Source: an uncultured Dehalococcoidia bacterium (GTDB lineage: Bacteria; Chloroflexota; Dehalococcoidia; Lucifugimonadales; Lucifugimonadaceae). From it: 64,000 bases of DNA. The number at the start of each line of letters is the position of its first letter. The stretch's first letter is position 1. Below are positions 7,231-61,999 of the stretch, in pieces. A model generated the notes under the pieces. That model worked only from the letters and a program-made list of their open reading frames with translations, searched no databases and was not told the DNA's origin. The stretch covers positions 1,612,001-1,676,000 of the forward strand of contig OY282385.1 of the NCBI GenBank assembly GCA_958295935.1, written 5' to 3'. The position numbers were made by a program, and so were the translations under genes.

Positions 7231-7563
7231 AGGGCCCCCCGCATCTTGAGTTGCAGGGTGACCAGGACGCATTCCCGGGGCCGACCCTGGCTGTACGGAT
7301 ATACTGCCACTATACAAGATGAGGATCAGGAATGACCCCAGGACTGCAGACCAACAGCGTTCAAATGGCGCTGGGCCAACGTGAGACTGCCGGCGCAGCG
7401 GCCTATGAGCTGATTTTCGCCGACGCCTTCCAGTGGCTTGAAAACCGCGCGCCTCTCGCAGATCGGACGTCGCCCTCAAGGGCGGAAAGGCTGTACCCGT
7501 AAACGGCGAGTAGGCGGATGTTAACGGCCCTTGACATGATCAGACCGTGAGTTGAGTCCAGCA
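7231..7563. other. Intergenic region between DUF4349 and enolase-like genes
   Basis: About 333 bases between divergent genes. A TTGACA lies at 7531-7536 but no matching -10 hexamer is found at 16-18 bases before the enolase-like start, so I do not call a promoter. The reading frame extending the lipoprotein gene upstream to 7479 looks unconstrained. Nothing else recognised. Confidence 0.35.
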
Positions 7564-8757
7564 ATGAAAATTACAAACCTGAAACTGCGCAAGGTCACCG
7601 GCGCCATGGAGACCAGTGACGTGTTCTGGGAAGAACGCCTGGCGAGGCCCATAGACGTCTACCCGGAATATCGACGTGCCCCGATGGAAGAAATGGCAGG
7701 GCAAATCGACGACCGGCATCTCCGTATAACCGCCTGGTTCGTACAGATAGAAACCAACGAGGGAGTATCCGGCATCGCAGGGCCCATGAATGAAGCCGTG
7801 GCCTTCATCATCGACAGGCAGTTGAGGCCAATACTGACAGGCAAAGACCCGGCAGCCACAGAGTTGCTATGGGACCAGATGCACCGCTTGCTGGTGCACG
7901 GGCGGCAGGGCGAAGCCATGATGGCCGTCAGCGCCGTGGACTGCGCGTTATGGGACCTCAAGGGACGATGGCTCGGACAGCCCGTACACAGACTCTTGGG
8001 TGGACCTACCAGGCAGGAAGTCCCCGCCTATGCCAGCATGTTGGGCTACGCGGTGGAAGACTTGGGTCTGGTCCGAGAACGCGCCCTTGCCGTCCAGGCA
8101 CAGGGATACCGCGCACAGAAGTGGTTCTTCCGCCACGGCCCCATGAGCGGGCCGGACGGTATGCGCAAAAACGTAGAAATGGTGCGCACACTGCGGCAGA
8201 CTCTCGGCAATGACGACGAAATTATGCTCGACTGCTGGCAAAGTTGGGACCTCACCTATGCCGTGCGTATGGCACGACGCATTGAGGAATTCGCACCGCG
8301 CTGGCTGGAAGAGTGCGCCATGCCGGACAGGATCGACACCTACCGGCAGCTCCGCCAACGCACCTCCATACCCATATCGGGCGCCGAACACGAATACACG
8401 CGATGGGGCTTCAAGAGGTTCGTGGACGCCGACGCACTCGACGTACTGCAACCCGATATCTACTGGGCAGGAGGACTATCCGAAACCCTCAAAATCGCCG
8501 CATACGCCACCGTACATGATCTCATCACCATCCCACACGGCCACTCCACACCCGCCGGAATCCACTTCTCCGCCACACAATCCCCCATTCATACCCCGTA
8601 TCAGGAATACCTCATCAAGTGGAACGAAATCCACCAATTCTTCCTGGCCGAACCTCTCAAACCAGTCAATGGCATGATCCAGGTACCCGAAACCCCCGGC
8701 ATGGGAATGGAACTAGACCCCCAGAAAATAGAACACGAAGAACAAGCCAACTGGTAA
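7564..8757 (+). CDS. enolase-superfamily sugar-acid dehydratase (rhamnonate dehydratase-like)
   Basis: A 397-residue member of the mandelate racemase/muconate lactonizing group. An N-terminal capping domain (residues 1-130) precedes a TIM barrel with KWFFRHGP (Lys 186), metal ligands in LDCWQSW (Asp 223), WLEECAM (Glu 249) and SGAEHEY (Glu 275), and the general base in IPHGHS (His 325). The KWFFRHGP...GMRKNVE pattern and the HGHS base resemble L-rhamnonate dehydratase-like enzymes, which abstract a proton alpha to a carboxylate. The exact substrate cannot be read. An in-frame TTG at 7552 is an alternative start; I prefer the ATG giving MKITNLKL. Enolase-superfamily expansion is a known trait of SAR202 Chloroflexota. 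Confidence 0.88.
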   Translation: MKITNLKLRKVTGAMETSDVFWEERLARPIDVYPEYRRAPMEEMAGQIDDRHLRITAWFVQIETNEGVSGIAGPMNEAVAFIIDRQLRPILTGKDPAATELLWDQMHRLLVHGRQGEAMMAVSAVDCALWDLKGRWLGQPVHRLLGGPTRQEVPAYASMLGYAVEDLGLVRERALAVQAQGYRAQKWFFRHGPMSGPDGMRKNVEMVRTLRQTLGNDDEIMLDCWQSWDLTYAVRMARRIEEFAPRWLEECAMPDRIDTYRQLRQRTSIPISGAEHEYTRWGFKRFVDADALDVLQPDIYWAGGLSETLKIAAYATVHDLITIPHGHSTPAGIHFSATQSPIHTPYQEYLIKWNEIHQFFLAEPLKPVNGMIQVPETPGMGMELDPQKIEHEEQANW

Positions 8758-13805: not shown

Positions 13806-14948
13806 CTACTGATCCACCACCGAGCCGTCCGCGTGCAACCTCGTGGCAACCTCCCTCGGCGTGTACGGAACCCTCTCACGGGCGTCCGGCTTTAGCTCCA
13901 CGCCGATGCCCGGCGCATCCGAAATGATCAGGTACCCGTTCCCGTCGTGCACAGGAGCGCCGCTCACCATGTCGATCTTTGGAGGCTCGAACTCGCCCGT
14001 GGGGTACTCCTGCAACGCAAAATTCGGCACTGAAGCCGCAATCTGAAGGCACGCCGCAGTGCTTACCGGGCTGAGAGGATTGTGCGGAACCACGCCAACG
14101 TGACGGGCCTCCGCAGCAGCCGCGATCTTCTTCGAACCGGAAATCCCACCCACTATGCAAACGTCCGGACGCACGTACTGCACCGCGTTGCGGCTAAGCG
14201 CCATCTCGAAATCCCAGAGAGAGGTGAACCGCTCGCCGGTCGCTATCGGAATGTTGATCTTGTCCGCCACGTAAGCCATCTCGTCGATGTTGTCAGGCGT
14301 TACAGGATCCTCGTAGAAATACGGGTAGAACTCCTCGATCCCCAAGCCCAGCTGCACAGCCTCCGTCGGCGTCAACTGCCGGTGGATCTCTATGCAAAGA
14401 TCCACCTCCCGACCCACCGCATCGCGATACGCAGCCACCGTGTCGATGGCGTCGCGCATCTTGTCAACGTGAGTCTTGAAGTAAGGCTTGTCCCGAGACT
14501 CGTCCAGGAAAGGAGTAAGGTGCCCTACGGCCGTGAAGCCCATAGCCTTGGCCGCCTTCACCCCGTTGATCAACTTCTCCTTGGTATCCCCGTAAACGTG
14601 GTAGTAGACACGCGCCTTGTCACGCACCTTGCCCCCCAGAAGCTGGTGCACCGGAACGCCGAAATGCTTGCCGGCAATATCCCACAAGGCAATGTCGATC
14701 GCGCTGATCGCACCCATCACCGCAGAACCCCGGAAATGAGAAAAACGGTACATGTACTGCCAGTGATGCTCTATTCGCAGAGGATCCTCACCCACCAGAT
14801 AGCGGCCGTACTTCTCGATTGCAGCAGCAGACGACTCCAGGTATCCCCAGGCCCCCGACTCGCCGAGGCCCGAAATCCCCGCGTCCGTTTCGATCTCGAC
14901 CAGCAAGTACCGGTCGAGGAATATAGGCTCAACTTTGGTGATCTTCAA
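13806..14948 (-). CDS. enolase-superfamily dehydratase (galactonate/mannonate dehydratase-like)
   Basis: A 380-residue protein of the mandelate racemase/muconate lactonizing group. It has a capping domain with AISAIDIALWDIAGK, then CIEIHRQLTP (Glu 187, His 189), YEDP (Glu 213), TGERF (Glu 239) and VPHNPLSPVSTAA (His 289). The E-I-H layout corresponds to the D-F-H of D-galactonate dehydratases, with Glu as first metal ligand; I recall this variant as usual in one subfamily. Dehydration of an aldonate is likely; the substrate is open. The start is TTG at 14948, with AGGAG 10 bases upstream. It is convergent with the UxuA-like gene (13 bases between stops), suggesting they work on related sugar acids. 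Confidence 0.87.
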   Translation of the reverse strand: MKITKVEPIFLDRYLLVEIETDAGISGLGESGAWGYLESSAAAIEKYGRYLVGEDPLRIEHHWQYMYRFSHFRGSAVMGAISAIDIALWDIAGKHFGVPVHQLLGGKVRDKARVYYHVYGDTKEKLINGVKAAKAMGFTAVGHLTPFLDESRDKPYFKTHVDKMRDAIDTVAAYRDAVGREVDLCIEIHRQLTPTEAVQLGLGIEEFYPYFYEDPVTPDNIDEMAYVADKINIPIATGERFTSLWDFEMALSRNAVQYVRPDVCIVGGISGSKKIAAAAEARHVGVVPHNPLSPVSTAACLQIAASVPNFALQEYPTGEFEPPKIDMVSGAPVHDGNGYLIISDAPGIGVELKPDARERVPYTPREVATRLHADGSVVDQ

Positions 14949-37480: not shown

Positions 37481-38662
37481 TCAGGGTGTCCACCGCTCCC
37501 CTCTGTCAAGCACAACCCCCAGATCAGGCGCACAGCCGATACCCGGCTCCCGATTCAGCTCGATGTAGCCGTCCACGATTCGCTCATGCGGCTCCAACGC
37601 CTCATGCCGCCACTCCACTTCATACACCGCATGCTCCAACGGCAGAACGTTGCCGAAACCAGCCGTCGCGTGCGCGCTTGTACACAATGAAACCGGCCCC
37701 GAAGGGCAGTGCAAAGACACGCAGCCAGGCTTCATCGACTCAAGCTCGCAGCCCGTAAGAAAAGCCTCCACAGGACCGCCGCAATGCATAACGTCCGGCA
37801 TCACGATGTCCAGAGACTCAGACTCCATGAGCGAACGAAAGGTCTCGATCCCGTAGCCGGACTCAGCCCCGGCCAGCGGCAACTCCGCGCAGTCCCGTAT
37901 TCGCAGAACGTCATCCCCCTGACCGATAGGGTCCACCGGCTCCTCGAACCAGTCCACTCCAATCGCACGCAACTCCTCCTCAAGCGCAATCGCAGATTCC
38001 ACGTCGAACCGGCTGTGACAGTCCACGTACAACTCCACCTCCGCGCCGATAGCCTCGCGAACCGCCGATACCCGCTCAAGTCCCTTCCGGGCCTCCGGCG
38101 GCAGACCACCAGCATCGAACGGCGCACGGCACTCGTCGAATGGCGCGCACTTCACACTGCGAAAACCCTCCGCAACAGCCCTCGCCGCAACGGCCGCGAA
38201 CGACTCGGCAGAACGGTCCACGTGCCCCCCGTCATCCGGAAGCATCGAACGATTGATGTTCGCGTATAGGCGGACGCGACGCGACGGTTCCCCCGCCCGC
38301 CCTGAACCGGCGCGCAAGTAATCCGCCAACGGCAACTCCGCACGCCGCGCCAGAGCGTCCGCAACCGCCGCACGCAAAGAACTCATGGCCGCACCCAGTA
38401 CCCCGGCCGAACGGGCCGAGGCGTCCCCCACCCGCAGAGCATCCACTACCGCGCGGTCCGAACTCAGAACCTCCCCGCGCAGACGGTCAGCCAACCTTGC
38501 AACCATGTCGGGGACGTTCCTGCCCCCAACCGCACCCGCTGCCTCAGCAAAGCCAAACCCTCCCTGACCGTCTCTTATCTCCAGAAAGCGCCAATCCGTA
38601 GGCCCCCGCACGTGCACCTTGTAGAAGATCAACTCGGAAGGCCGGAACCATAGATCAGTCAC
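37481..38662 (-). CDS. enolase-superfamily protein, divergent mandelate racemase-like
   Basis: A 393-residue member of the mandelate racemase/muconate lactonizing group. Metal ligands sit in YVDCHSRFD (Asp 214), FEEPVDP (Glu 240) and AGAESGYG (Glu 267). The barrel has Lys 171 in VKCAPFD, where the usual KxK has lost its second lysine (Ala 173), and SLHCPSGPVS (His 318). The Gly-rich N-terminal capping domain diverges from the other two paralogues in the window. Substrate unknown. The start is GTG 38662 with GAGG six bases upstream. It is 25 bases upstream of the VLRF1 gene and probably co-transcribed with it, which is functionally unexpected. Confidence 0.85.
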   Translation of the reverse strand: MTDLWFRPSELIFYKVHVRGPTDWRFLEIRDGQGGFGFAEAAGAVGGRNVPDMVARLADRLRGEVLSSDRAVVDALRVGDASARSAGVLGAAMSSLRAAVADALARRAELPLADYLRAGSGRAGEPSRRVRLYANINRSMLPDDGGHVDRSAESFAAVAARAVAEGFRSVKCAPFDECRAPFDAGGLPPEARKGLERVSAVREAIGAEVELYVDCHSRFDVESAIALEEELRAIGVDWFEEPVDPIGQGDDVLRIRDCAELPLAGAESGYGIETFRSLMESESLDIVMPDVMHCGGPVEAFLTGCELESMKPGCVSLHCPSGPVSLCTSAHATAGFGNVLPLEHAVYEVEWRHEALEPHERIVDGYIELNREPGIGCAPDLGVVLDRGERWTP

Positions 38663-39180: not shown

Positions 39181-39363
39181 GCCATCCTCCTTTGATAGCG
39201 GCTCGAACATGAATCGACCGCTGCCCCGCTCATCCCGCAATGCGCCGTCCGCGCCTACGCAGACGCCGCACTCCCTCCTTTCCCTCATGGTAGATTATCG
39301 CTTACTTTCACACCCACGCCTGCTTTGCAAGCGCGACAACCCAATACATCGAACATCCCCATC

Positions 39364-40599
39364 ATGGCTATCACCGGAATCAACCACACCAAGACCCCAG
39401 AACCGGACATCCTCATAACAGGCGGCCGCGTGATCGACCCGGAACGAGGATTGGACGGCCCATACGACGTCGCAATTGCCGGTACCCGAATAAGCAGCGT
39501 GGAACCGACGGGCAATCCAGCGCCTGCCGCACGCACCATAGACGCATCCGGCCTGCTGGTAGTCCCGGGCCTGATCGACGTGCACGTACACGCGGCCGGA
39601 AACCTGCGCAAGGCGGTAGGCGAGGAGACCGTGCTCCCTCCCGATCTGGTGGGAGTCCACGCCGGAGTCACAACCATCCTCGACGCAGGCTCCACAGGCG
39701 CATACAACGTCGCAGGGTTCCTCAACTACGCCGCCTCACACGCAAGAACCCGGACATTGGGAATGGTCAACGCCGGAGTGCTCGGAATCTTCCGAGTGCC
39801 GGAAATCAGGGAACCCGAGGACGTGGACCACCACGCCACTGTGGCCGCAATCAGGCTGAGGCCGGACGTGCTCAAGGGCGTGAAGGTACGCATGGTCAGC
39901 CCAGCCATCATTGAAATGGGAATAGACCTTCCAAGGGCTGCAAAAGCCATGGCCCAGGCTGCGGACGCCAGACTCATGGTCCACGTCGGGGACATTCTGC
40001 AAGGACATACCATCGCCGCCAGCCTCGCTCCACGACTGCTCCGGGAAGTGCTCACCGCAGGAGACATCGTTACCCACTCATTCAGCCGCCACGTCGGCGC
40101 GCTGCTCGCAGGGGACGACCTCATCGAGGAAGCCTTGGAGGCCAAACGAAACGGAGTCGTATTCGACGTTGGCGTCGGAAGAAACAACTTCAACTTCGAC
40201 GCAGCAAAGAAGATACTCGATCAGGGCCTCACGCCGGACACCCTGGGATCAGACGTGACCGCAGGCTCGCGCATCACCCCCACCCACAGCCTTACCGAAT
40301 CCATGGGAAAGGTAATGTCCTTGGGTCTCTCGCTCGAAAAAACACTGGACATGGTTACCTGTGCACCGGCAAAAGCCCTTGGCATCCAGAAAGAAACCGG
40401 AACACTCGAACCCGGACGTACCGCAGACATATCCCTACTAGAGGAAATCCGCGGCGACTGGATCTACAGAGACGCCGACGGAGCAGCCAACCGCGGAGAC
40501 GTCGCCATCATTCCCCGCATAGCCATAAGAGCCGGCGAACTTATGCCCCTCGACTTTGGACCGCGCCCATGGGGCTGGCTGCCGGAATCCGCCAGCTGA
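39364..40599 (+). CDS. amidohydrolase (dihydroorotase/deacetylase-like metallohydrolase)
   Basis: A 411-residue amidohydrolase: ILITGGRVIDPERG, then VVPGLIDVHVHAAGN (metal His-x-His), KGVKVRMVSP with a candidate carboxylated lysine, LMVHVGD, IVTHSFSRH and the catalytic Asp in LGSDVTAGS. The tail has APAKALGI and LEPGRTADISLL as in cyclic amidohydrolases. It resembles the EF0837/Atu3266 'amidohydrolase/deacetylase' group. It precedes the selenoprotein gene by about 170 bases on the same strand and might supply its substrate (inference). The ATG at 39364 is preferred over TTG 39325. Confidence 0.83.
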   Translation: MAITGINHTKTPEPDILITGGRVIDPERGLDGPYDVAIAGTRISSVEPTGNPAPAARTIDASGLLVVPGLIDVHVHAAGNLRKAVGEETVLPPDLVGVHAGVTTILDAGSTGAYNVAGFLNYAASHARTRTLGMVNAGVLGIFRVPEIREPEDVDHHATVAAIRLRPDVLKGVKVRMVSPAIIEMGIDLPRAAKAMAQAADARLMVHVGDILQGHTIAASLAPRLLREVLTAGDIVTHSFSRHVGALLAGDDLIEEALEAKRNGVVFDVGVGRNNFNFDAAKKILDQGLTPDTLGSDVTAGSRITPTHSLTESMGKVMSLGLSLEKTLDMVTCAPAKALGIQKETGTLEPGRTADISLLEEIRGDWIYRDADGAANRGDVAIIPRIAIRAGELMPLDFGPRPWGWLPESAS

Positions 40600-40766
40600 A
40601 CCCCCGCCCCGGCTACTCCGCACATCGCGAACTCTGAAAAACCGACGCTGCCCCCGCGCCCGAAACATCCACACACAACTGCCCCCATCGCGAAGCAAAG
40701 CGAGGTATTCGGGTAGACTGCCATGTTGTACGATGGCCTTGATAGGCCGCTTACCGGAGGGCGTAT

Positions 40767-42125
40767 ATGACCAGGCCGCTGAAAATAGTGCAATACCTCA
40801 ACCAGTTCTTTGGAGGCATCGGAGGTGAGGAATACAACGACCAGCCCGTTCAAGTCATTGAAGGGCCGGTTGGACCCGGACGAGCCTTGGCAAACATACT
40901 GGGAGACACCGTCGCCGTAACCGCCACTATCATCGCAGGAGACAACTTCCTCGTCGAAGAGCAAGACCGATCCCTGCCACCCGTTCGCCAGGCCCTCCGC
41001 AAATACCAGCCTGACCTGGTAGTCGCAGGACCGGCATTCGACGCCGGCCGATATGGACTCGGCTGCGCCCTGATATGCCAATTGGCCAACGAAACCGGAA
41101 TAAACGCCGTAACCGGCATGGAACCGGACAACCCAGGAGTCATGAGCCAGAAGGGCCTATACGTAATTCCGACAGGATCCAGCCCCGCTGAAATGGTTCC
41201 AGCCCTCAGAAAGATGGCGGCCCTCGGACTCAAGCTCGCACGCAAAGAAGAGGTCGGTTCCGCCGAGGAAGAGGAATACCTGCCGAGAGGTATCAGGAAG
41301 CCGTTCAATCGTCACAAGCAAGGAGCGGAAAGGGCCGTCGACATGGTCCTCGGCCGCATTAAAGGAGAACCCGTAGCTTCAGAAATCTCCATAAGGCAAT
41401 ATGACCAGGTGGATCCCCCGCCGCCCATCGACGACCTCAGCCGATACAGCGTGGCCCTCATTACCACCGCCGGAATAGTACCAAGAGGAAACCCAAACAG
41501 GCAGTCCACCGAGATACCGCGAAACTACTTCGCATACAGCATCGCAGGGGTCGACTCCCTAACCGTCCAGAACTGGGAGTCCGTCCACACTGGCTTCAAG
41601 GGACACGTATACAACACCTTGAACCCAAACTACGCCCTCCCCCTCCCCGCCCTGCGTGAACTGGATCGAATAGGCGAAATTGGCCAACTGCACGACCGAT
41701 TCTACTCCGTAGTCGGAGGCGGATGCCCGGTCAGCGATGCACGACGAATCGGACGAGGTATAGCAACAGAACTCACCGACGCAGACGTAGAGGCTGTGAT
41801 CCTGGAATCGACCTGAGGAAGCTGCAATCGCTGCGGCGCAACGATATCCAAAGAACTTGAACGAGCAGGCATAAGGGTGGCCATGGTCAGCGCTCTCCCA
41901 TCCGTACCGCTCACCCTCGGAGCACACCGAGTGGTACGAGGAATTCGCGTAGAACACCTCTGCGGAGACCCAACACTCTCACCGGAAAGTGACCGAGAAC
42001 TCATGCTGCTGATAGCCCGCACCGCGCTGCGCGCTATCAAGACGCAGGTGCAAGAACCGACTCTCTTCGAACGAGAGGAAACCCAGGCCCCCAGTGTCCA
42101 CAGGGAGTTGGTCGGTGCGTCTTGA
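40767..42125 (+). CDS. selenocysteine-containing reductase, GrdB-like component B (UGA read through at residue 350)
   Basis: The frame reads from ATG 40767 (GGAGG seven bases upstream) to TGA 41814, then continues in the same frame to a stop at 42125. Across the TGA it gives VILESTUGSCNRCGATIS, which matches the GrdB active-site pattern (ST-U-GTCTRCGAT). The following ELERAGI and PLTLGAHRVV also match GrdB to its C-terminus. The total is 452 residues with Sec at 350, the size and Sec position I recall for clostridial GrdB. GrdB cleaves the C-N bond of glycine, sarcosine or betaine with the Sec. A terminator reading would delete the essential UxxCxxC. The substrate here is unknown. grdA, grdC and grdD are absent from the window. 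Confidence 0.92.
41814..41816 (+). other. TGA recoded as selenocysteine
   Basis: In-frame TGA at codon 350 of the GrdB-like gene. Downstream coding is conserved in the same frame. A short stem is possible just after it (GCTGC at 41821-41825 pairing with GCGGC at 41833-41837), but I cannot show that it is a bacterial SECIS element by eye. Confidence 0.9.
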
Positions 42126-43437
42126 AGTAGGCAGCGTTCAGGTGGACGAAATCCGGTGGGGACCCTCCACCCGATTCTCAAACGGAACGCTCACCCTTGA
42201 CCGCGATGAAATTGAAGAACTCGTCCTCCAGGACTCCCAGATAGAGAGGACACGAGCCGAAATCGCCTCACCAGGCGATTCCGTCCGCATCATAAATCCC
42301 AACGACAAGATCGAACCACGAGTCAAAGTCGCAGGACGAGGCGTCGCATATCCCGGCTACCAGGGCCGACCGACCGAGCAGGTAGGCAGCGGAAGAACGC
42401 ACCGCATGGCAGGCCTTGCGGTCATCGACTGCCTCGACTATTCCGCAGCAGGGGAGAGCCAGGCGGGAGAGGACCGCACCTGGAGCCGGGACGAGCACGG
42501 AACACTCGGAAACGACTGGCCGGAAGGCGTCAGCCCGGACTTCATAGACGTGAGCGGACCAGGCGCGCAACTCAAGCCGTTCGGAACCCTGCACAACCTC
42601 TGCATCGTAATACAGGCCCCCAGCGGAGTCTCCGCCGATGAACAGCACGGCGTTTCACAATCCGCAGCCATGCGGGTTGCCGAGAGAATCGCCGAAACCG
42701 TCAGAAACGTACAGCCAGACTACGTCGAAACCTTCGACACACAACCCAGACCAGACCTCCCAAGCGTCGCATACATACCGCACCTCGCCTCGTTTGAACC
42801 ACAGGTCGGCCCCCGAGGACGATTCGGCAGCGCAGTGTACGGACAGGGAAGGCTGTCAGCGCCCTGGCTGCTGGAATCGACCGAGCTCATGGACGGAGCC
42901 GTCGCAGGATCTGGACACACCTGGATCATGGCCAACAACCCGGTGGTGATGAGCCTGGCCCGCCGCCACGGGAAAGACGTCAACTTCTTGGGATGCATAT
43001 TGCAGCGCACCAACTGGACCAACCAGCGGGAATACGTCCTGGCAGCGCACAGGGCAGGAGTCTTGGCGGAAAAACTGGGCGCGCAGGGGGCAATCATCAC
43101 CACCGACGTGCGAGGTCAAAGATGGGTCGGAACCATGTTGACCGTGCAGGAATGTGAAAATCGGGGCATCGACGTCGTACTCCTCACCGAGGAAGAAGAC
43201 AACGAGAACGGAGCCGCGCCAGCCCTCCTATTCGCACCAACGGAACTGAAGTACGTCGTCACCACTGGCACCGGAGACGTGGCCGGCGGCTTCCCGGCAG
43301 TGGATCGGGTTATAGGCGCTATCGACGAGCCCACGGCCCAATGGTACAAGGCCTTCCCGCCCCTACACGGGCGCTACGGAATCGCGCACGTTGCCGACTA
43401 TTACGGCTACGGCTCACAGAGCTACGCCGACTACTAG
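42115..43437 (+). CDS. GrdE-like component B partner (alpha/beta precursor family)
   Basis: A 440-residue protein matching the glycine/sarcosine/betaine reductase component B alpha/beta precursor: GTLTLDRDEIEELVLQD, a central VYGQGRLSAPWLLES and NNPVVMSLARRHGKDVNF. Its GTG at 42115, eight bases after GGGAG, overlaps the selenoprotein stop by 11 bases, so the two are translationally coupled. In true GrdE, as I recall, a Cys within DGAIVSGNC is cleaved to form a pyruvoyl group that binds the amine. Here the segment is DGAVAGSGHTW with no Cys, and no other T-C or N-C pair occurs. It may therefore be a non-processed, divergent type. Confidence 0.82.
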   Translation: MRLEVGSVQVDEIRWGPSTRFSNGTLTLDRDEIEELVLQDSQIERTRAEIASPGDSVRIINPNDKIEPRVKVAGRGVAYPGYQGRPTEQVGSGRTHRMAGLAVIDCLDYSAAGESQAGEDRTWSRDEHGTLGNDWPEGVSPDFIDVSGPGAQLKPFGTLHNLCIVIQAPSGVSADEQHGVSQSAAMRVAERIAETVRNVQPDYVETFDTQPRPDLPSVAYIPHLASFEPQVGPRGRFGSAVYGQGRLSAPWLLESTELMDGAVAGSGHTWIMANNPVVMSLARRHGKDVNFLGCILQRTNWTNQREYVLAAHRAGVLAEKLGAQGAIITTDVRGQRWVGTMLTVQECENRGIDVVLLTEEEDNENGAAPALLFAPTELKYVVTTGTGDVAGGFPAVDRVIGAIDEPTAQWYKAFPPLHGRYGIAHVADYYGYGSQSYADY

Positions 43438-43464: not shown

Positions 43465-44379
43465 TCACTCGATCTGACGAAGGCGAGGATCGAACCGGTC
43501 GCGCAGCCAGTCCCCAAGGAATGTCACCGCCAGCACCGTCAGGGCTATGGCGATGCCCGGAAATACCGAAATCCACCAGGCGTGGGTAACGTAGATCCTG
43601 CCCGCGGAAACCATCGACCCCCAGGCAGGAGTGGGCGGAGGAACACCTACCCCGAGGTAGCTCAAACCAGCCTCGGCAAGAATTACTGAACCCACCAGGA
43701 GCGTGCCTACCACAACCACCGTGTTCACCACCCCAGGCAGGATGTGACGGGCCAAAATCCGCGGCCCGGAAGCTCCGGCCACCTTCGCAAGGCTCACGTA
43801 ATCCGTCTCCTTGAGCGCCAGTACCTCCCCGCGAACCTGTCTCGCGAACCCGCTCCAGAACCAGAAGGCCAGGATCCCAACCAACACCGCAAAGCTCCGA
43901 CCAAGCACGATCACCAAAACCATCCCCAGAAGGATGAAAGGCAGGGCCAGCTTGATATCCACTATGCGCATGATCAGCTCGTCCACCCACCCCCCGTAAT
44001 AACCCGACACGAGCCCAAGCAGAGTGCCCGCAGTACCGCTGATCGCCAGCGTAACACCCGCAACGATCAACGACACACGAGCACCGTAGATGATGCGGCT
44101 AAGCACGTCCCGGCCCAGACTGTCCGTGCCCAGAAGGAACCCGCTCCCCGAGTCGGTGAACGATGGAGGAAGATGGCGGGTGCGCAAATTCGGCAGCTCA
44201 TGCTCATGCGGAGCAAGCCACGGAGCGAACAAACCACCAAACACCAGCAGAGAGATGACCACTATCGAAAACACAGGCCAACGACGAAACGGAAGCGTTA
44301 TACGCCTGATACGACCCTGCCCCGACGACTTGCCAATTTGCCCGATCTCAGATGAAGTGGCCACACCCAAACGCCTCAC
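43465..44379 (-). CDS. peptide/nickel-type ABC transporter permease (DppC-like)
   Basis: A 304-residue inner-membrane permease: N-terminal helix, HLPPSF, then LLGTDSLGRDVLSRIIYGARVSL (the DppC/OppC signature), about five further helices and the ATPase-docking EAA-like loop YVSLAKVAGASGPRILARHILP. The GTG start at 44379 overlaps the dppB-like stop (GTGA). It is third gene of a set with the upstream binding protein and permease B. No ATP-binding subunit is adjacent. Substrate class: oligopeptides or other small polar solutes. Confidence 0.92.
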   Translation of the reverse strand: MRRLGVATSSEIGQIGKSSGQGRIRRITLPFRRWPVFSIVVISLLVFGGLFAPWLAPHEHELPNLRTRHLPPSFTDSGSGFLLGTDSLGRDVLSRIIYGARVSLIVAGVTLAISGTAGTLLGLVSGYYGGWVDELIMRIVDIKLALPFILLGMVLVIVLGRSFAVLVGILAFWFWSGFARQVRGEVLALKETDYVSLAKVAGASGPRILARHILPGVVNTVVVVGTLLVGSVILAEAGLSYLGVGVPPPTPAWGSMVSAGRIYVTHAWWISVFPGIAIALTVLAVTFLGDWLRDRFDPRLRQIE

Positions 44380-45296
44380 GAGCCCAGACGAATACGAGGA
44401 TCGATCACCGCGTACAGCAAATCGACCAGAAGCGAACTGATCAGATAGAAGAAAGTCACCACCAGAATGACCCCCTGAATGATGGCGTAATCCGAAGTCT
44501 GAACTGATTGCAGAGCCAACTGACCAATCCCAGGCCACGCAAACACCGCCTCGATCACGATCGCACCGGTTATAAGCCCCGCAAACGTGAGACCGGCATA
44601 GGTCAAAGGCGCGATCAACGCATTACGGAAACCATGCTTCCAAACCACCAGAAAACCCGATACGCCCTTCGCTCGAGCCAACTTCACGTACTCCGAGTCG
44701 AGAACGTCCAGCATCGCAGATCTGGTAAGGCGAAGCTGACCAGAGCTAGCGCCCCAGCCAACCACGAACGCAGGAAGGATCAAATGGCTCAGATTCCCGC
44801 GCCCCGAAGTCGGTAGCCAGCCCAGCGCTACGCCGAACAACAGAATCCCCATGATTCCAACCCAGAAAACCGGCAGCGATACCCCCAGCACCGCAGACCA
44901 CCTCCCCGCCAGATCCCAGTAGCTCCCGCGGTACACCGCAGACAGCACTCCCAAAGGAATCCCGATCACTATGGAAACCAGAAAACCCGCAATTGCCAAC
45001 TGCGCTGACGCCGGCAGACGCTCCCAGATCAGATCCCTAACAGGTACGCTGCGGTATAAGGACACGCCGAGATTACCCCTCGCGATACGACCTAGGAATA
45101 ACCCGTACTGCTGATACACCGGCTTGTCGAATCCCAACCGCTTGCCCCATAACTCGTAATCCGAACGAAGCGTAAAGTCGTCAACCCAGATTGAGCGAGG
45201 GTCGCCTTGTATTCGTGCTAGCACGAATACAAGCAGAGTCGCACCCAAGAGGCTCAACAGCGTAGTAAGCAGCCGCCGGGCCAGGAAACGCGCCAT
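44376..45296 (-). CDS. peptide/nickel-type ABC transporter permease (DppB-like)
   Basis: A 306-residue permease with six predicted helices: MARFLARRLLTTLLSLLGATL at the start, GNLGVSLYRSVPVRDLIWERLPASAQLA, and an EAA loop YVKLARAKGVSGFLVVWKHGFRNALI. It pairs with the DppC-like protein to form the membrane channel. GGGGAG precedes the ATG. It lies about 107 bases downstream of the binding-protein gene. Confidence 0.92.
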   Translation of the reverse strand: MARFLARRLLTTLLSLLGATLLVFVLARIQGDPRSIWVDDFTLRSDYELWGKRLGFDKPVYQQYGLFLGRIARGNLGVSLYRSVPVRDLIWERLPASAQLAIAGFLVSIVIGIPLGVLSAVYRGSYWDLAGRWSAVLGVSLPVFWVGIMGILLFGVALGWLPTSGRGNLSHLILPAFVVGWGASSGQLRLTRSAMLDVLDSEYVKLARAKGVSGFLVVWKHGFRNALIAPLTYAGLTFAGLITGAIVIEAVFAWPGIGQLALQSVQTSDYAIIQGVILVVTFFYLISSLLVDLLYAVIDPRIRLGS

Positions 45297-45403: not shown

Positions 45404-47335
45404 TTAGGGCCTCGATATGCGGTCCAGACTCCGGGGATAGCCGATGTCGCTAAGACCCATCGGCCACTCCTTGATCTTGTTGGGGTTGATCGCGATCGTC
45501 ACCGAAAGACCCATCGTTTCAATCGAAATCATGTTGTGGACTGTGTAGTCCCACACAGCCTCCTGCGCCGAACGAAGGCTCGCCTGCGTCGTCGCACCAC
45601 GAACCGCATTCACAAGAGTGATCAACTCGGGCAACTCGAACCCAGGGTTGAACGCTCCACCGGGATGCCGGTTGAAGATCAACGTACCGTCCCGCGCATG
45701 TGACCGCGCCCACAGCCAAATGTTGTTCCGTTCCCTGTTCACAAGGCCCACCCGGTGAGCCTGATACGTAAGGGTCTCGATGTTCATCTCAACGCCTATC
45801 GCACGCCACATCCCCGCAACCGCTTCACCGACCTCCACGGCCAGAGGATGACCCGTCGTGATCACAAGGTCAGCCTCGAAACCATCAGGGTAACCGCCGT
45901 CCGCCAGGTACTTCTTCGCTACGTCCAGATCGTACGGAATCGTCCACTTTGCATCGATCTCCGAAAGCCAAGCCTGGCGCTGGGCGCCCCCCATACCATT
46001 GACGTGCTGCTGAAATGCCTTCCCGGCGCCGATCGTCTCCACCAGAGCCTCACGGTCTACCGACGCCGCCAACCCCCAGCGGACGTTGCGAGCACGTTCC
46101 ATTGAAGAAGGATCGTTGCAGTCCCCGATGTATGGAATAGAAGGGTCATACGCCGGACGAGGTGGAACCGGATTGTCGTTGAAAGTGGCGCCCCAGCAGA
46201 ACTGACCCGCAGGGTAGAAGGTGAATCCCACCCCGGCCCCCGGCAGACCGCGAACGTCGAATCCCTTACCCTCGATGTCCCGGATCAAGGGAGTCGGGAC
46301 GTCCGTCACGTCGACCTCTCCAGCTTCCAGCGCAGCAAGACGAGTCGTTATCTCCGCAATCTCGCGAACGATCACCGTACCGTATGCAGGATCCCGGTGG
46401 TGATGGTTCGGAACCCGCGAAAGAACCATGCGGTCGCCAGTCCTGAAAGACTCAAGCTCATAAGGACCGCTCCCGATCCCAGCGCTCATCGCTTTGTCAG
46501 GACCCAACCGGTCCAGAACCGCTTTGGAATGGATGGCCCGCGTCGTATTGGCGCTGACGAAACCATCAAGCCATGTCGGACGAGGCTCATCCGCAGACAA
46601 GCTCACTGTGTAATCGTCCAACTTGCTCATGTGAGAATTCAGTTGCTTGTCCAGACCCGTACCGCTCGCAATAGTTCCCTCCGTCCAAACCGCTTCCTCC
46701 CACGAGTAGACGAAATCGTCCGCAGTCACCTCCCCGTTGCCGCCGTGGAAAGGCACGCCCCTCTTGATTCGGAACGTAAGCTCCGTGAAATCCGCATTGA
46801 ACTCCCACGACTCGGCAAGCAAGCCCGACAAATTCCCCGACTCGTCTATCTCAAGCGGCGACTCTTGAATCCCCAAAAGACCGGCAAACTGAGAATTCGG
46901 GACAGGCGAACGCCAAGGCACGAAACTCGGAAAGCCAATGTTGTCAAACGCTATGACCAGAGTGTCAGACCTTGGATCAGGCACAGGAGTCGCAGGCACA
47001 GGAGTCGCTACCACAACCACCGTCTCAACCACACGCTCCGTTTGAGTCACAGGCTTCTCAACCACAACCGTTTGCACCACTCGCTCAGTGCGAGTTACAG
47101 GCTTCTCAACCACAACCGTCTCAACCACCGTCACCGTCTTGCCCTCGATCTGCTTCTCCACGACCACCGTCTCAACCACCTTCTCCACCCTCGTGATCGG
47201 CTTTTCCACTACGACGGTCTGAACTTCAGTCACCGTCTGAGTCCCCCCGCCGCAGGCTATCGCCAGCGCGGATAGGGCCCCCGCCGCCAGCAGAATGGCA
47301 AGAATCCCCCGGCGGTGAATCTGGCGTTTGGACAT
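45404..47335 (-). CDS. peptide-type ABC transporter substrate-binding lipoprotein (SBP_bac_5)
   Basis: A 643-residue exported lipoprotein: signal peptide with lipobox near Cys 28 (ALAIACGGG), then a low-complexity stalk of about 90 residues built from VVVEKPVT/RTERVVET repeats, and a family-5 binding domain from about residue 125 (LTFRIKRGVPFHGG, DFVYSWEEA, AVEVGEAVAGMWRAIG). The stalk probably holds the domain away from the membrane; similar repeats are common in Chloroflexota lipoproteins. It binds peptides or other solutes for the two permeases downstream. AGAGGGGGC lies before the ATG. Confidence 0.92.
   Translation of the reverse strand: MSKRQIHRRGILAILLAAGALSALAIACGGGTQTVTEVQTVVVEKPITRVEKVVETVVVEKQIEGKTVTVVETVVVEKPVTRTERVVQTVVVEKPVTQTERVVETVVVVATPVPATPVPDPRSDTLVIAFDNIGFPSFVPWRSPVPNSQFAGLLGIQESPLEIDESGNLSGLLAESWEFNADFTELTFRIKRGVPFHGGNGEVTADDFVYSWEEAVWTEGTIASGTGLDKQLNSHMSKLDDYTVSLSADEPRPTWLDGFVSANTTRAIHSKAVLDRLGPDKAMSAGIGSGPYELESFRTGDRMVLSRVPNHHHRDPAYGTVIVREIAEITTRLAALEAGEVDVTDVPTPLIRDIEGKGFDVRGLPGAGVGFTFYPAGQFCWGATFNDNPVPPRPAYDPSIPYIGDCNDPSSMERARNVRWGLAASVDREALVETIGAGKAFQQHVNGMGGAQRQAWLSEIDAKWTIPYDLDVAKKYLADGGYPDGFEADLVITTGHPLAVEVGEAVAGMWRAIGVEMNIETLTYQAHRVGLVNRERNNIWLWARSHARDGTLIFNRHPGGAFNPGFELPELITLVNAVRGATTQASLRSAQEAVWDYTVHNMISIETMGLSVTIAINPNKIKEWPMGLSDIGYPRSLDRISRP
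46990..47245. repeat. Coding minisatellite-like repeat in the binding-protein stalk
   Basis: Imperfect 48-base units carrying ACAGGCTTCTCAACCAC and ACAACCGT on the plus strand recur (for example at 47049 and 47097), encoding 16-residue VVVEKPVT...RVV units. Units differ by synonymous and conservative changes, implying older duplication. Confidence 0.75.
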
Positions 47336-57632: not shown

Positions 57633-58319
57633 ATGACCGCGACTAACCTCTACCGGATACGACCGGCCGAAAAATCGGATGCCCGGGCGATGAACTCCAT
57701 CGAAAGCGAGGCGTTTCCAGACTTGGAACGCCCGACGAAGTTCCGGAGAGAGTTACAGCGGAACGACGTGGTCTATCTCGTCGCGACCCGGCCGTGGACG
57801 AAAGAGGAGCGAGATGCCGCCAGGCGGGGCGAGCGGTCCAACAACAGACAGCCGGCAACTGCGGACCTTGTAGGCAGAGCGCAGCACTCACTTGAAGGGC
57901 TGATGTTCCAGGCGCTCGGACTGATCGGCAAGAATCTCCCCGCAGAGCACGTTGGCGGCTTCCAGGGAATCTGGTTCGCGCTGGACACTGCACACCTAAC
58001 CGTCATCGCCAGCCGGCCCGATGAGCGAAGGAAGGGAATAGGCGAACTACTCCTCATGGCCGCAGTGGAACTGGCTATGCACAGAACCTCGCGGACCGTA
58101 ACCTTGGAAGTGAGAGCCTCCAACGAGGCGGCCAGGGCCCTCTACCGAAAGTACGCTTTCCAGGACGTGGGCGTTAGGAAACGTTACTACTCCGGCGGAG
58201 AGGACGCTATTATCATGACCACGCCGCCTATCTGGAGTAAAGACTACATAGCCCACTTCAGCTTGTTGACCCGCAAGTTCGAGGCCCGATGGGGTGAGTC
58301 GCATAGAGTACTTATCTGA
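57633..58319 (+). CDS. GNAT-family acetyltransferase (RimI-like, extended)
   Basis: A 228-residue protein. The C-terminal half has the GNAT core: LTVIASRPDERRKGIGELLLMAAVELA near 130 (acetyl-CoA loop RRKGIG) and LEVRASNEAARALYRKYAFQDVGVRKRYY, typical of RimI. An insertion (residues 50-100) between the first strand and the core is longer than in RimI. A protein N-terminal or small-molecule substrate is possible. ATG at 57633; the next gene starts about 80 bases downstream. Confidence 0.82.
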   Translation: MTATNLYRIRPAEKSDARAMNSIESEAFPDLERPTKFRRELQRNDVVYLVATRPWTKEERDAARRGERSNNRQPATADLVGRAQHSLEGLMFQALGLIGKNLPAEHVGGFQGIWFALDTAHLTVIASRPDERRKGIGELLLMAAVELAMHRTSRTVTLEVRASNEAARALYRKYAFQDVGVRKRYYSGGEDAIIMTTPPIWSKDYIAHFSLLTRKFEARWGESHRVLI

Positions 58320-58401
58320 AAGGACGCACCAGACACTGCGCTCGTATAAAGCATCGAGATTCCACGGCAGCCCCGGCCAACGAAAACACCGCGGTCAGAG
58401 C

Positions 58402-60135
58402 ATGGCCCCCTTTCTGATCAGAGCCGCAATGAGCCTGTTGCTCCCCGCCGTCACAGCAGTCGCCGCCTGCGCGCCCGACTCGCCGCCCCCCGCAACAGTC
58501 CAGGCAACCCGCCCCACACAAACGGACGCTGCGCAAGTCCCGGACCCCAACTCTGTCGCTACCGCAGAAGCGTCACCGGCAACAGACAGTCAGGGGTACG
58601 GGCCCAACGACGAATCGTCTGAGGCCAAGCCCAGGGGAGTACTGAGAATCGCCCAAGCCCGGGACCCAACCAGCTGCGACCTCCCAATGGCCCAGGCCAC
58701 AAGCTACCAGTCGGTACACCCGTGCAACCCCATGCTGTCCCAGATCGTCCGCATTTCAACGGACGACCACTCAGCCGTAATTCCCGATCTCGCGCTCAGT
58801 TGGGAGACTTCGAGCGACGGCGCCGAGTGGAAATTCACACTGCGCCCCGACGCAACATGGCACAACGGGAGGCCGGTCAGCGCAGACGACCTCAAGTTCA
58901 GCCTCGATAGAGTCATAACCCCACCGGAAGGTCTTACCATCGGCCGAGCGGGCGTCATAGCCCGATACGTCCCCTCCACCGACATGGTGTCCACTCCCGA
59001 CACCGCCACCCTCCTGGTGCAGACCGACTTCCCGGCAGCGTCGTTTCTTCCCAACCTCGCCAGCGTATACGTCTCCATCTATCCGCGCGCCGAAACAGAG
59101 GAACTTTCCCCACCCTCCATGATGCAGTTCTCCACCGTCATCGGCAGCGGCCCCTTCACACCCGGCCCGGCAACGCGAGGCGCCGTATACAGCCTGCAGA
59201 GAAACCCTCAGTACTACGAACCGGGATTGCCCATGCTGAATGAGGTCCGCTTTCTCGTCATGCCGCATCCCGCCACCCGCATGGCAGCGCTGCAAACCCG
59301 CGTGATCGACACCATCGCGATCGTCACTGAACCGGAAGCCATGGTCCTGGAGCAAGACTTTGCAGGGGAGGTAAACGTCTACAGGTCGCCGTCTGCGGGC
59401 GGCAACACCGTCCAACTCAACCTGAGCCGACCCCCGTTCAACGATCCCATCGTCAGACGAGCGGTAGCCTTGGCCTTCTCCAGAGCAGACGCCGATCTTG
59501 CCCTGGGACCCGGATACGACGGCGCGATTCTGCCGCCCGGAGGACCATGGGGGCTGAGCGAAGAGGAACTCTTGAAGCTGGAAGGATACGGCGACAAGAA
59601 CGCAGAAAGAGACCAGGCGCGCAAACTGCTCGCACAAGCCGGATACCCGGACGGAATGGAAACCTCCATCAAGACCCAGGCAACCCCCTTTTTCCAAACT
59701 CTTGCAGAGTTCGCCGCCGGCCAGCTCAGCACGGTAGGAATACGGGCCGAAGTAACCACCGTCGAACCCGTCGAGTACCAACGAATAATCCGATCCGGAG
59801 AGTTCGAAATCATCGCCCACAGCCACTCCTTCCCCCTCGACGACCCGGACTCCATACTCATAGACCACTACTCCTGCGATGGAAACGAGAACTTTCCAGG
59901 CCTCTGCGATCCCGAACTCGATCGTATGATCAATCGTCAGAGCCGCACCCTCGACGCCGCACAGCGTAAAACCATCCTCGACGATATCCAGCGCAGCATC
60001 TGGCACGCGAACGCCAAGATATGGTTCCAATGGAGCTCGCGTCGCACGCCGGTACTATCCAACGTCCACGCAATGGAGCCGGGCGGTTCGAGCCTTTACC
60101 AGGGAAGGCGCCTCGAACGAGTGTGGATAGACTGA
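58402..60135 (+). CDS. peptide-type ABC transporter substrate-binding lipoprotein (second system)
   Basis: A 577-residue exported lipoprotein: signal peptide with lipobox at AVAACAPDS (Cys 23), a Pro/Thr/Ala-rich linker to about residue 80, and a family-5 binding domain (WKFTLRPDATWHNGRPVSADDLKFSLDRV, PFNDPIVRRAVALAFSRAD, ARKLLAQAGYPDG). It feeds the two permeases encoded directly downstream. Unlike the first system it has no VVVEKPV stalk. ATG at 58402, at the start of the signal peptide. Confidence 0.92.
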   Translation: MAPFLIRAAMSLLLPAVTAVAACAPDSPPPATVQATRPTQTDAAQVPDPNSVATAEASPATDSQGYGPNDESSEAKPRGVLRIAQARDPTSCDLPMAQATSYQSVHPCNPMLSQIVRISTDDHSAVIPDLALSWETSSDGAEWKFTLRPDATWHNGRPVSADDLKFSLDRVITPPEGLTIGRAGVIARYVPSTDMVSTPDTATLLVQTDFPAASFLPNLASVYVSIYPRAETEELSPPSMMQFSTVIGSGPFTPGPATRGAVYSLQRNPQYYEPGLPMLNEVRFLVMPHPATRMAALQTRVIDTIAIVTEPEAMVLEQDFAGEVNVYRSPSAGGNTVQLNLSRPPFNDPIVRRAVALAFSRADADLALGPGYDGAILPPGGPWGLSEEELLKLEGYGDKNAERDQARKLLAQAGYPDGMETSIKTQATPFFQTLAEFAAGQLSTVGIRAEVTTVEPVEYQRIIRSGEFEIIAHSHSFPLDDPDSILIDHYSCDGNENFPGLCDPELDRMINRQSRTLDAAQRKTILDDIQRSIWHANAKIWFQWSSRRTPVLSNVHAMEPGGSSLYQGRRLERVWID

Positions 60136-60209
60136 GCCGGCTCTCAACCGGTCGGAGCCCCTGACTTGCCGGCTGAAACCCTCCGGCAATCAGCCGCCTG
60201 CTTCACCCC

Positions 60210-61181
60210 ATGTCCGCCTCCGCCCACTACCTGATTCGACGAGCCGCTCTCTCTGTCCTGACTCTGTGGCTCATCACGATAATAGCCTTTGCTCTACTCC
60301 GCATCGCTCCCGGCGACGCAGTATTGGCCGCCATGGCCAGATCACCCGGCGAAATGTCGCTCAGTGCAGCTGCAATGGAAGAACGCCGCGCAGACCTGGG
60401 ACTCGACCGCAGTTACGCCGCCCAATACCTGTCATGGCTGGGCGGGCTTCTAAGGCTTGACCCCGGCGCGTCTATCGCCACCGGCCTACCCATCGGCCCC
60501 GAGGTCGCCCCCAGGATCGCAGTAACCATCCAACTGGCGCTCCTTTCCGCGCTGACCGCCGGACTCGCGGGAACCCTGGCAGGCGTCGCCGCGGCAGCGT
60601 GGAAAGACGGACCCTTCGACGCCGCAGCCCGCACGCTCGCCCTCGCCGCCCTCTCCGCGCCCGCCTTCTGGCTAGGATTGATCTTGGTCTTGGCGCTGGC
60701 CGCGTGGGCCAACATATTCGTCGCTGCCGGATACAGGCCAATATGGGACGATCCGGCCGCCAACCTGACGCGCATCATGCCGGCCGCAACAGTGCTCGCG
60801 GCGCGCCCCGCCGCCCTTGTATTCCGCATAGTCCGCATCTCTACGGTAGAAATCCTGGAAAGCGACTTCATCAGAACTGCAAGGGCCAGAGGCCTGACGG
60901 AAACCAGGATACTTTGGGGCCACGCCTTCCCGGCCGCGGCGCTGCCTGGCATCACCGCCCTAGGCGTACAGACCGTATTTCTACTCAGCGGCGCAGTCGT
61001 GATCGAGCAGGTCTTTGGACTCCCGGGGTTGGGAAGATCCCTGACTGAAGGAGTGCTCACCCGCGACTATCCACTCGTGCAGTTCCTCGTACTCCTCTTC
61101 GGATTTTTCGCTCTCCTGACCAACTTCACGATGGACGCCGTCTATACGCGGCTGGATCCCAGAGTGAGGCTCGCGGCATGA
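60210..61181 (+). CDS. peptide-type ABC transporter permease (DppB-like, second system)
   Basis: A 323-residue permease: LIRRAALSVLTLWLITIIAFALLRIAPGDAV at the N-terminus is the DppB/OppB start. About six helices and an EAA loop FIRTARARGLTETRILWGHAFP follow. Its stop overlaps the next start as ATGA (61178-61181). Confidence 0.92.
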   Translation: MSASAHYLIRRAALSVLTLWLITIIAFALLRIAPGDAVLAAMARSPGEMSLSAAAMEERRADLGLDRSYAAQYLSWLGGLLRLDPGASIATGLPIGPEVAPRIAVTIQLALLSALTAGLAGTLAGVAAAAWKDGPFDAAARTLALAALSAPAFWLGLILVLALAAWANIFVAAGYRPIWDDPAANLTRIMPAATVLAARPAALVFRIVRISTVEILESDFIRTARARGLTETRILWGHAFPAAALPGITALGVQTVFLLSGAVVIEQVFGLPGLGRSLTEGVLTRDYPLVQFLVLLFGFFALLTNFTMDAVYTRLDPRVRLAA

Positions 61182-61999
61182 TGAAGCGATTTGTAGCCTC
61201 CGGAGCTACAAGGGCCGGCCTCGTGATCGGCCTATGCCTCGTATTGATGCTGTCGATCGGGCCGCAAATGGACGAAACCGATGGACGCGGCGACCTTCAA
61301 AACACGCTGAGCGGCCCGGCCTGGCCGCACCCATTGGGCACAGACCAACTCGGCAGGGACGCCCTGGCACGAGTCGCTCGAGGCCTCCGCGGCTCCCTGC
61401 TCATCGGAATATCCGTGGCCCTGATCTCCGGTGTTGTTGGAGGCCTTGTGGGTCTGGCATCGGGATTTTGGAGAGGCTGGCCCGATCTTCTACTGCAACG
61501 CCTTACCGATGCGCTCATGGCCCTGCCCCTCCTGGTGATGGCGTTGGCCGTGATAGCAGTCACGGGCCCCACCCGTGCAGGCGTCGTCATCGCCCTGTCC
61601 GTCGCCTTCACCCCCCTCGTAATGAGGGTGGTGAGATCCTCCGCGCTCGCCCTTCAACAGGCGGGACACGTCGAAGCCGCAAGAGCTTCAGGCGCCACCG
61701 ATTGGCACGTCATCGCCGCACACCTCTCGCCCAACGCACTCGCTCCATGGGCGGTTGTTGTATCCACCCAGGTCGGCGGCGCGGCCCTCGCCGAGGCGTC
61801 CCTCAGCTTCCTCGGAGCAGGGCCCGGCGGAGACGCATCCCTGGGAGCATTGCTCGGGGGCGAGGCCCAGACCTACGCATTCGCCGCGCCGTGGCTCATC
61901 GTGTGGCCCGGCATTGCCCTGGCCCTCGTGTCAGTCTCCGCAAATCTGATTGGAGACGGCCTCGCACGTTCCGCCTCACCATTCTCAAGACGAAACTGA
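61178..61999 (+). CDS. peptide-type ABC transporter permease (DppC-like, second system)
   Basis: A 273-residue permease with HPLGTDQLGRDALARVARGLRGSL (DppC signature), five to six helices and an EAA loop HVEAARASGATDWHVIAAHLSP. It completes an SBP-permease-permease set. No ATP-binding gene follows; the next gene is convergent. The N-terminal cytoplasmic part is shorter than usual. Confidence 0.92.
   Translation: MMKRFVASGATRAGLVIGLCLVLMLSIGPQMDETDGRGDLQNTLSGPAWPHPLGTDQLGRDALARVARGLRGSLLIGISVALISGVVGGLVGLASGFWRGWPDLLLQRLTDALMALPLLVMALAVIAVTGPTRAGVVIALSVAFTPLVMRVVRSSALALQQAGHVEAARASGATDWHVIAAHLSPNALAPWAVVVSTQVGGAALAEASLSFLGAGPGGDASLGALLGGEAQTYAFAAPWLIVWPGIALALVSVSANLIGDGLARSASPFSRRN

Follow-up and report, generated by a model that had tools for sequence, protein, structure and literature searches.

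The window, a 64,000-nucleotide stretch of a Dehalococcoidia genome (Lucifugimonadaceae), carries a grdB-like gene with an in-frame TGA, a grdE-like gene that overlaps its end and, convergent with both, the genes of an ABC importer. The features considered here are:

39325-40599, plus strand: amidohydrolase (PRK09237/EF_0837-like; Amidohydro_1), a possible partner
40756-40761, plus strand: Shine-Dalgarno-like GGAGGG, read directly from the sequence
40767-42125, plus strand: GrdB-like selenoprotein (protein B subunit) of 452 residues with Sec350 and UxxCxxC (PF07355, TIGR01918)
41814-41816, plus strand: TGA read as selenocysteine 350, by its conservation in the family
41828-41844, plus strand: bSECIS-like hairpin, stem UCGCUGC/GCAACGA with a C-A mismatch at 41831/41841, by covariation in the family
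42115-43437, plus strand: GrdE-like subunit without pyruvoyl-forming Cys (PF09338, Gly_reductase, 249 bits)
42892-42942, plus strand: GrdE residues 260-276, the place of the pyruvoyl-forming site in glycine-type GrdE, by GrdE protein comparison
43465-44538, minus strand: Dpp/Opp-type ABC permease C (BPD_transp_1), convergent neighbour and probable substrate importer
44376-45296, minus strand: Dpp/Opp-type ABC permease B (BPD_transp_1)
45404-47335, minus strand: extracellular solute-binding protein, family 5 (SBP_bac_5, 167 bits)

A selenocysteine codon within one continuous gene

The grdB-like gene starts with an ATG at 40767, five bases 3' of the GGAGGG, and beyond the TGA at codon 350 its frame continues uninterrupted as far as a TGA stop at 42123-42125. 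Standard translation splits it into a 349-residue product and a second ORF (41877-42125), which is the 3' part of the same frame beyond the Sec codon, as an earlier sequence-only reading of this DNA had proposed with the correct start, TGA and end. The core motif around Sec350 is STUGSCNRCGAT. The host's 2.75 Mb one-contig genome contains five PF07355 genes, all five with TGA at the aligned position and with the shared motif [AS]TUG[ST]CNRCGAT. The window protein was 61-65% identical to its four own-genome paralogs after the TGA (residues 351-435) and 43-48% identical before it, a pattern which argues for coding on both sides of the TGA. Moreover, grdE starts at 42115 within the final grdB codons (11 nt overlap), so that its start would be reachable only for a ribosome that had read through the TGA.

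We extended the comparison to 94 full-length members, taken from a scan of named genomes and from the surrounding family. TGA occupied the Sec site in 93 of the 94, which span many phyla and include the five own copies; the single exception was a Bathyarchaeota copy with TGT (Cys). One of the two scan patterns could match only Cys codons at the Sec site, and the scan was therefore not blind to Cys forms. Selenocysteine is also at position 350 in the GrdB of C. sticklandii (PMC3091704). These comparisons confirmed 40767-42125 as a single 452-codon gene for a predicted GRDB-family selenoprotein, and the claim of a selenoprotein hidden by an in-frame TGA was borne out.

AlphaFold models of both subunits were good (mean pLDDT 86 for GrdB and 82 for GrdE) and placed residue 350 after strand 341-348 and just before helix 351-366. 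Sequence searches found no relative among solved structures, and Foldseek searches of the PDB with the models gave weak matches only (TM about 0.2), so no function was drawn from the fold.

A SECIS-like hairpin 3' of the TGA

The region 3' of the TGA, for which the sequence-only reading had recommended a bSECIS search (41814-41870), contains a hairpin with an apical GGC loop at 41835-41837, 18 nt past the TGA. A CGTTGC/GCAACG stem enclosing a GGN loop was conserved across phyla in 91 distinct sequences, in which pair 17/27 was T-A in 76, C-G in 13 and C-A in two, and pair 18/26 was T-A in 84, A-T in six and T-G in one. The stem bases also covaried with the protein, Cys-to-Ser and Thr-to-Ala changes being matched on the other arm (positions 18/26 and 17/27). 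Codon choice in the hairpin was biased in Chloroflexota-type genes: its Ala codon was GCA in 25/25, against 15% of their Ala codons, and its Arg codon was CGT in 23/25, against 12%.

The evidence for a SECIS element, strong for the family, is weakened for the window copy. The C-A mismatch occurred only in the window gene and in the paralog near 2517 kb of the host contig, and the consensus hairpin folded at -3.8 kcal/mol in these two and at -8.1 to -10.0 kcal/mol in the other three paralogs. In a synonymous-shuffle test the window hairpin did not beat its shuffles (z +0.59). Given the mismatch and the shuffle result, Sec decoding may be less efficient at the window copy. A scan of the window against Rfam, with gathering thresholds applied, returned nothing.

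Selenocysteine machinery and other selenoproteins of the host

The sequence-only reading implied that the host has SelA, SelB, SelC and SelD, and all four were found in the genome, each above its family cut-off: selA (516 bits, cut-off 268), selB (337 bits, cut-off 242), selD (381 bits, cut-off 125) and, by whole-genome search, a tRNA-SeC with anticodon tca, while tRNA scanning within the window and at the selB locus gave none. The absence of all sel genes, which that reading had named as fatal to its claim, is thus not the case. SelD is itself probably a selenoprotein, since selD (L126:1501-2427, plus strand) has its own in-frame TGA. The genome's GrdA also carries a TGA, in CFVU, and is likely a selenoprotein. 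A glutaredoxin-like frame with a TGA in a GUGPC motif (L029:9996-10235, plus strand; about 560.0 kb on the host contig) lies inside a grd cluster; by its motif it is likely a seleno-glutaredoxin, possibly the reductant for GrdA.

Many relatives within the bacterium's own family that have no full GrdB (e.g. L117-L121) carry distant, shorter, TGA-bearing GrdB/PrdB-like genes (26-54 bits), and the family seems to use Sec widely. In sponge symbionts from several phyla, an enrichment of SelA and SelB has been noted (PMC5649159).

An uncharacterised clade of the glycine-reductase family

The window protein scored 377 bits with PF07355 (GRDB; cut-off 22) and 398 bits with TIGR01918 (selenoprotein B; cut-off 65), and fell below the cut-offs of the equivalogs for glycine reductase GrdB (TIGR01917, 354.9 against 602 bits), sarcosine reductase GrdF (NF040794, 406.8 against 800 bits) and betaine reductase GrdH (NF040795, 367 against 775 bits). 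The window GrdE likewise reached only 91.9 of the 675 bits required for the fluoroacetate reductase FarE (NF053623). NCBIfam thus places the window GrdB in the broad selenoprotein B subfamily, under every characterised equivalog cut-off, and of the proposed label 'GrdB-like reductase' the family stands, the glycine, sarcosine and betaine assignments having all been missed. Similarity to D-proline reductase PrdB and PrdB-like selenoproteins is confined to distant homology (63 bits, far under the PrdB cut-off of 300 bits) and a UxxC Sec site, those proteins being about half as long.

Motif searches agreed with the profiles. The published glycine-GrdB motif, by which glycine reductases were picked in a study of serpentinite springs (PMC9751293), matched 0/27 members of the window clade versus 30/42 pyruvoyl-type members; the sarcosine (GrdF) motif matched neither the window protein nor any other clade member. 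In a tree of the 94 proteins the window gene fell in a 31-row branch (support 98/96) comprising SAR202 and other Chloroflexota, Entotheonella, Rokubacteria and Myxococcota, while two Halanaerobiales copies of betaine-type look stood elsewhere. In the Chloroflexota-centred part of the branch, an Arg and a Leu that hardly vary among glycine-type proteins are replaced by Tyr289 and Cys399, respectively; the change from Arg289 to Tyr could also point to a substrate without a carboxylate. The window gene is thus placed, by sequence, in a well-supported uncharacterised clade of the glycine-reductase family. TGA-bearing GrdB forms with one or both UxxCxxC cysteines replaced (e.g. UGTGTR, UGTANRC, UGTDTR) were seen at loci L072, L082, L087, L092, L095, L096, L104, L109 and L113.

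A GrdE partner without the pyruvoyl-forming cysteine

In C. difficile GrdE, the peptide 242-266 begins with a cysteine-derived pyruvoyl group (PMC9908766). Where glycine-type GrdE has DGAIVSGNCVSACDKN, taken to be the pyruvoyl site by position and conservation, the window GrdE has DGAVAGSGHTWIMANNP. The pyruvoyl-forming cysteine was absent from all six GrdE of the host genome, and its presence followed gene order, being found in 0/30 loci with the order grdB-grdE, which is that of the window clade, and in 42/57 with the order grdE-grdB. Processing cysteines are also lost in FarE and in the betaine reductase subunit GrdI, both described as not being proproteins (PMC10838667). Together, the missing cysteine, its correlation with gene order and the FarE/GrdI precedent speak for a substrate bound otherwise than as a Schiff base to a pyruvoyl group. 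The earlier suggestion that the protein matches the GrdB active site holds only for the UxxCxxC core and the overall family, and fails for the equivalog cut-offs, the glycine-GrdB motif and the pyruvoyl cysteine of GrdE.

Partner subunits, importers and neighbouring genes

A grd cluster at 550-563 kb of the host contig contains one GrdA, one GrdC, two GrdE, one GrdB, an ABC importer and the seleno-glutaredoxin candidate. This GrdA is the only one in the genome, and GrdC scored 587 bits (cut-off 450); a profile search of the genome did not find GrdD, so that the glycine reductase complex GrdA-GrdC-GrdD appears incomplete there. Among 21 further genomes, GrdD was matched strongly in two Clostridia (588 and 558 bits); the other 19 gave no match above cut-off, two of the 19 being probably the same genome and some of them incomplete; four of the 19 gave 20-28 bits only, no better than PlsX-like proteins. 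Loci that combine GrdC and GrdA but lack GrdD were seen in several phyla (L047, L074, L084, L092, L095, L103, L105 and others), and several of the 19 genomes, for example Syntrophus, Nitrospinota and Nealsonbacteria, have GrdC and GrdA side by side. GrdC without GrdD is therefore not an oddity of the host genome, and in such loci acetyl release may proceed otherwise than in Clostridia.

Of the host's five grdBE loci, four had Dpp-type permeases B and C within about 5 kb, in three cases on the same strand; the importer genes of the window are convergent with grdBE and do not form one operon with it. Against a background of four Dpp-type permease pairs in twenty sampled 20-kb stretches, an importer at 4/5 loci would have a binomial probability of about 0.001, a rough figure given the small background sample.

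The amidohydrolase upstream of grdB was considered as a clue to the substrate and dropped: a 35% identical homolog was found near the grdBE pairs of locus L035, and two occurrences are too few. The window also holds a second solute-binding protein with a Dpp-type permease pair (58294-61999, plus strand), unrelated to grdBE, and three genes resembling enolase-superfamily members (7552-8757, 13806-14948 and 37481-38662), the last of which proved on checking to be a relative of sugar-acid dehydratases.

Proposed function and alternatives

From this inventory we infer a substrate, a chemistry and a product for the window's protein B. In the reading that we favour and consider reasonably probable, it is a SelB-decoded 'protein B' that works without a pyruvoyl group, breaks C-X bonds in imported non-glycine substrates and supplies GrdA and GrdC. 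SelB and Sec-tRNA would read UGA 350 by means of the hairpin just 3' of it, and the GrdB-like product and the adjoining GrdE-like protein would together form a substrate-specific 'protein B'. Because the window GrdE is unable to form a cysteine-derived pyruvoyl group, Sec350 would attack the activated C-X bond of a small carboxylate directly, the leaving group being a substituted or quaternary amine or another group; direct Sec attack has been proposed for the betaine and fluoroacetate reductases. The resulting selenoether would go on to GrdA, of which the genome has one, and from there to GrdC. Since GrdD was not found, exit of an acetyl-type product as acetyl phosphate via GrdC/GrdD is improbable, or else an unrelated enzyme could replace GrdD in the host genome. 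With five paralogous B pairs, four of them beside a Dpp-type importer, the range of substrates would be broader.

The first alternative, in which a conventional protein B of glycine, sarcosine or betaine reductase supplies a Stickland-type pathway to acetyl phosphate, appears unlikely. The window system shares with clostridial glycine reductase the family models, Sec350 with UxxCxxC, the PF09338 GrdE pair and the GrdA and GrdC partners, and the want of a pyruvoyl Cys in betaine-type GrdI (PMC10838667) would accommodate the window GrdE. Nevertheless, it differs from the clostridial glycine system in its grdB-grdE order, the GrdE without processing cysteine, the missing GrdD and the Tyr289 and Cys399 substitutions, with the glycine motif and cut-off missed; the sarcosine motif fits no clade member, and the GrdH score, less than half of its cut-off, separates the window GrdB from betaine reductase. 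As far as sequence can tell, the window gene does not emerge as a glycine reductase, and the tests run point elsewhere within the family.

An enzyme that works like FarEB, either a dehalogenase dependent on a selenol or a similar enzyme that cleaves C-X bonds, is in our estimate quite unlikely. FarE also lacks both processing cysteines, and several B paralogs are thought to share one GrdA system in the FarB/FarE case (PMC10838667); the window GrdE does match the FarE model weakly, but far under its cut-off, and FarB has lost the CxxC that the window GrdB keeps.

We regard as very unlikely a third reading, in which the protein is not a catabolic reductase but a peroxide- or thiol-redox selenoprotein retained since its host meets oxygen. 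The genome's haem-copper oxidase and the extra clade-specific Cys399 would suit such a role, as would a peroxidase activity of GrdB, reported in a title cited in PMC3091704, but the conserved GrdE pairing, the GrdA and GrdC of the genome and the adjoining importers point to substrate turnover. Finally, a true stop or sequencing error at TGA 350 that leaves a broken or truncated gene, the error at 41814 having been raised by the sequence-only reading itself, could draw on the hairpin mismatch of the window copy but is virtually excluded, and was rejected, given TGA in the five paralogs and nearly every family member, better conservation after the TGA than before it and the complete Sec machinery of the genome.

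Host and significance

GrdB is a textbook example of a selenium enzyme from organisms that ferment amino acids. The present host can be called SAR202-like solely from the named GrdB sequences closest to its own; since its genome encodes a haem-copper oxidase, it probably uses oxygen for respiration at least some of the time. Two further genomes from the window's family have full-length homologs, at loci identical to public Chloroflexota records, which settles the phylum. Full-length homologs were found in 11 of 400 sampled Chloroflexota genomes; in this sense the gene is unusual in Chloroflexota, as had been stated, but shorter TGA-bearing relatives are common in its own family and glycine reductases with GrdB and GrdE have been published for Dehalococcoidia of serpentinite springs (PMC9751293). 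Two descriptions of SAR202 genomes, searched for grd or selenium genes, made no mention of them.

A standard gene caller would report five such genes in one genome as truncated ORFs. Extending our preferred reading of a pyruvoyl-free protein B, we tentatively picture an oxygen-respiring SAR202-like lineage with a multi-substrate, pyruvoyl-free and GrdD-less selenium reductase, served by dedicated ABC importers and perhaps reduced by a seleno-glutaredoxin from its grd cluster, which might cleave C-N or other C-X bonds of dissolved organics outside Stickland fermentation. A pyruvoyl-less branch in five copies, in a genome that encodes an oxidase and in which no GrdD was found, would mean selenol chemistry on other substrates, outside classical fermentation, and would link selenium supply to how organic nitrogen or other C-X compounds are turned over.
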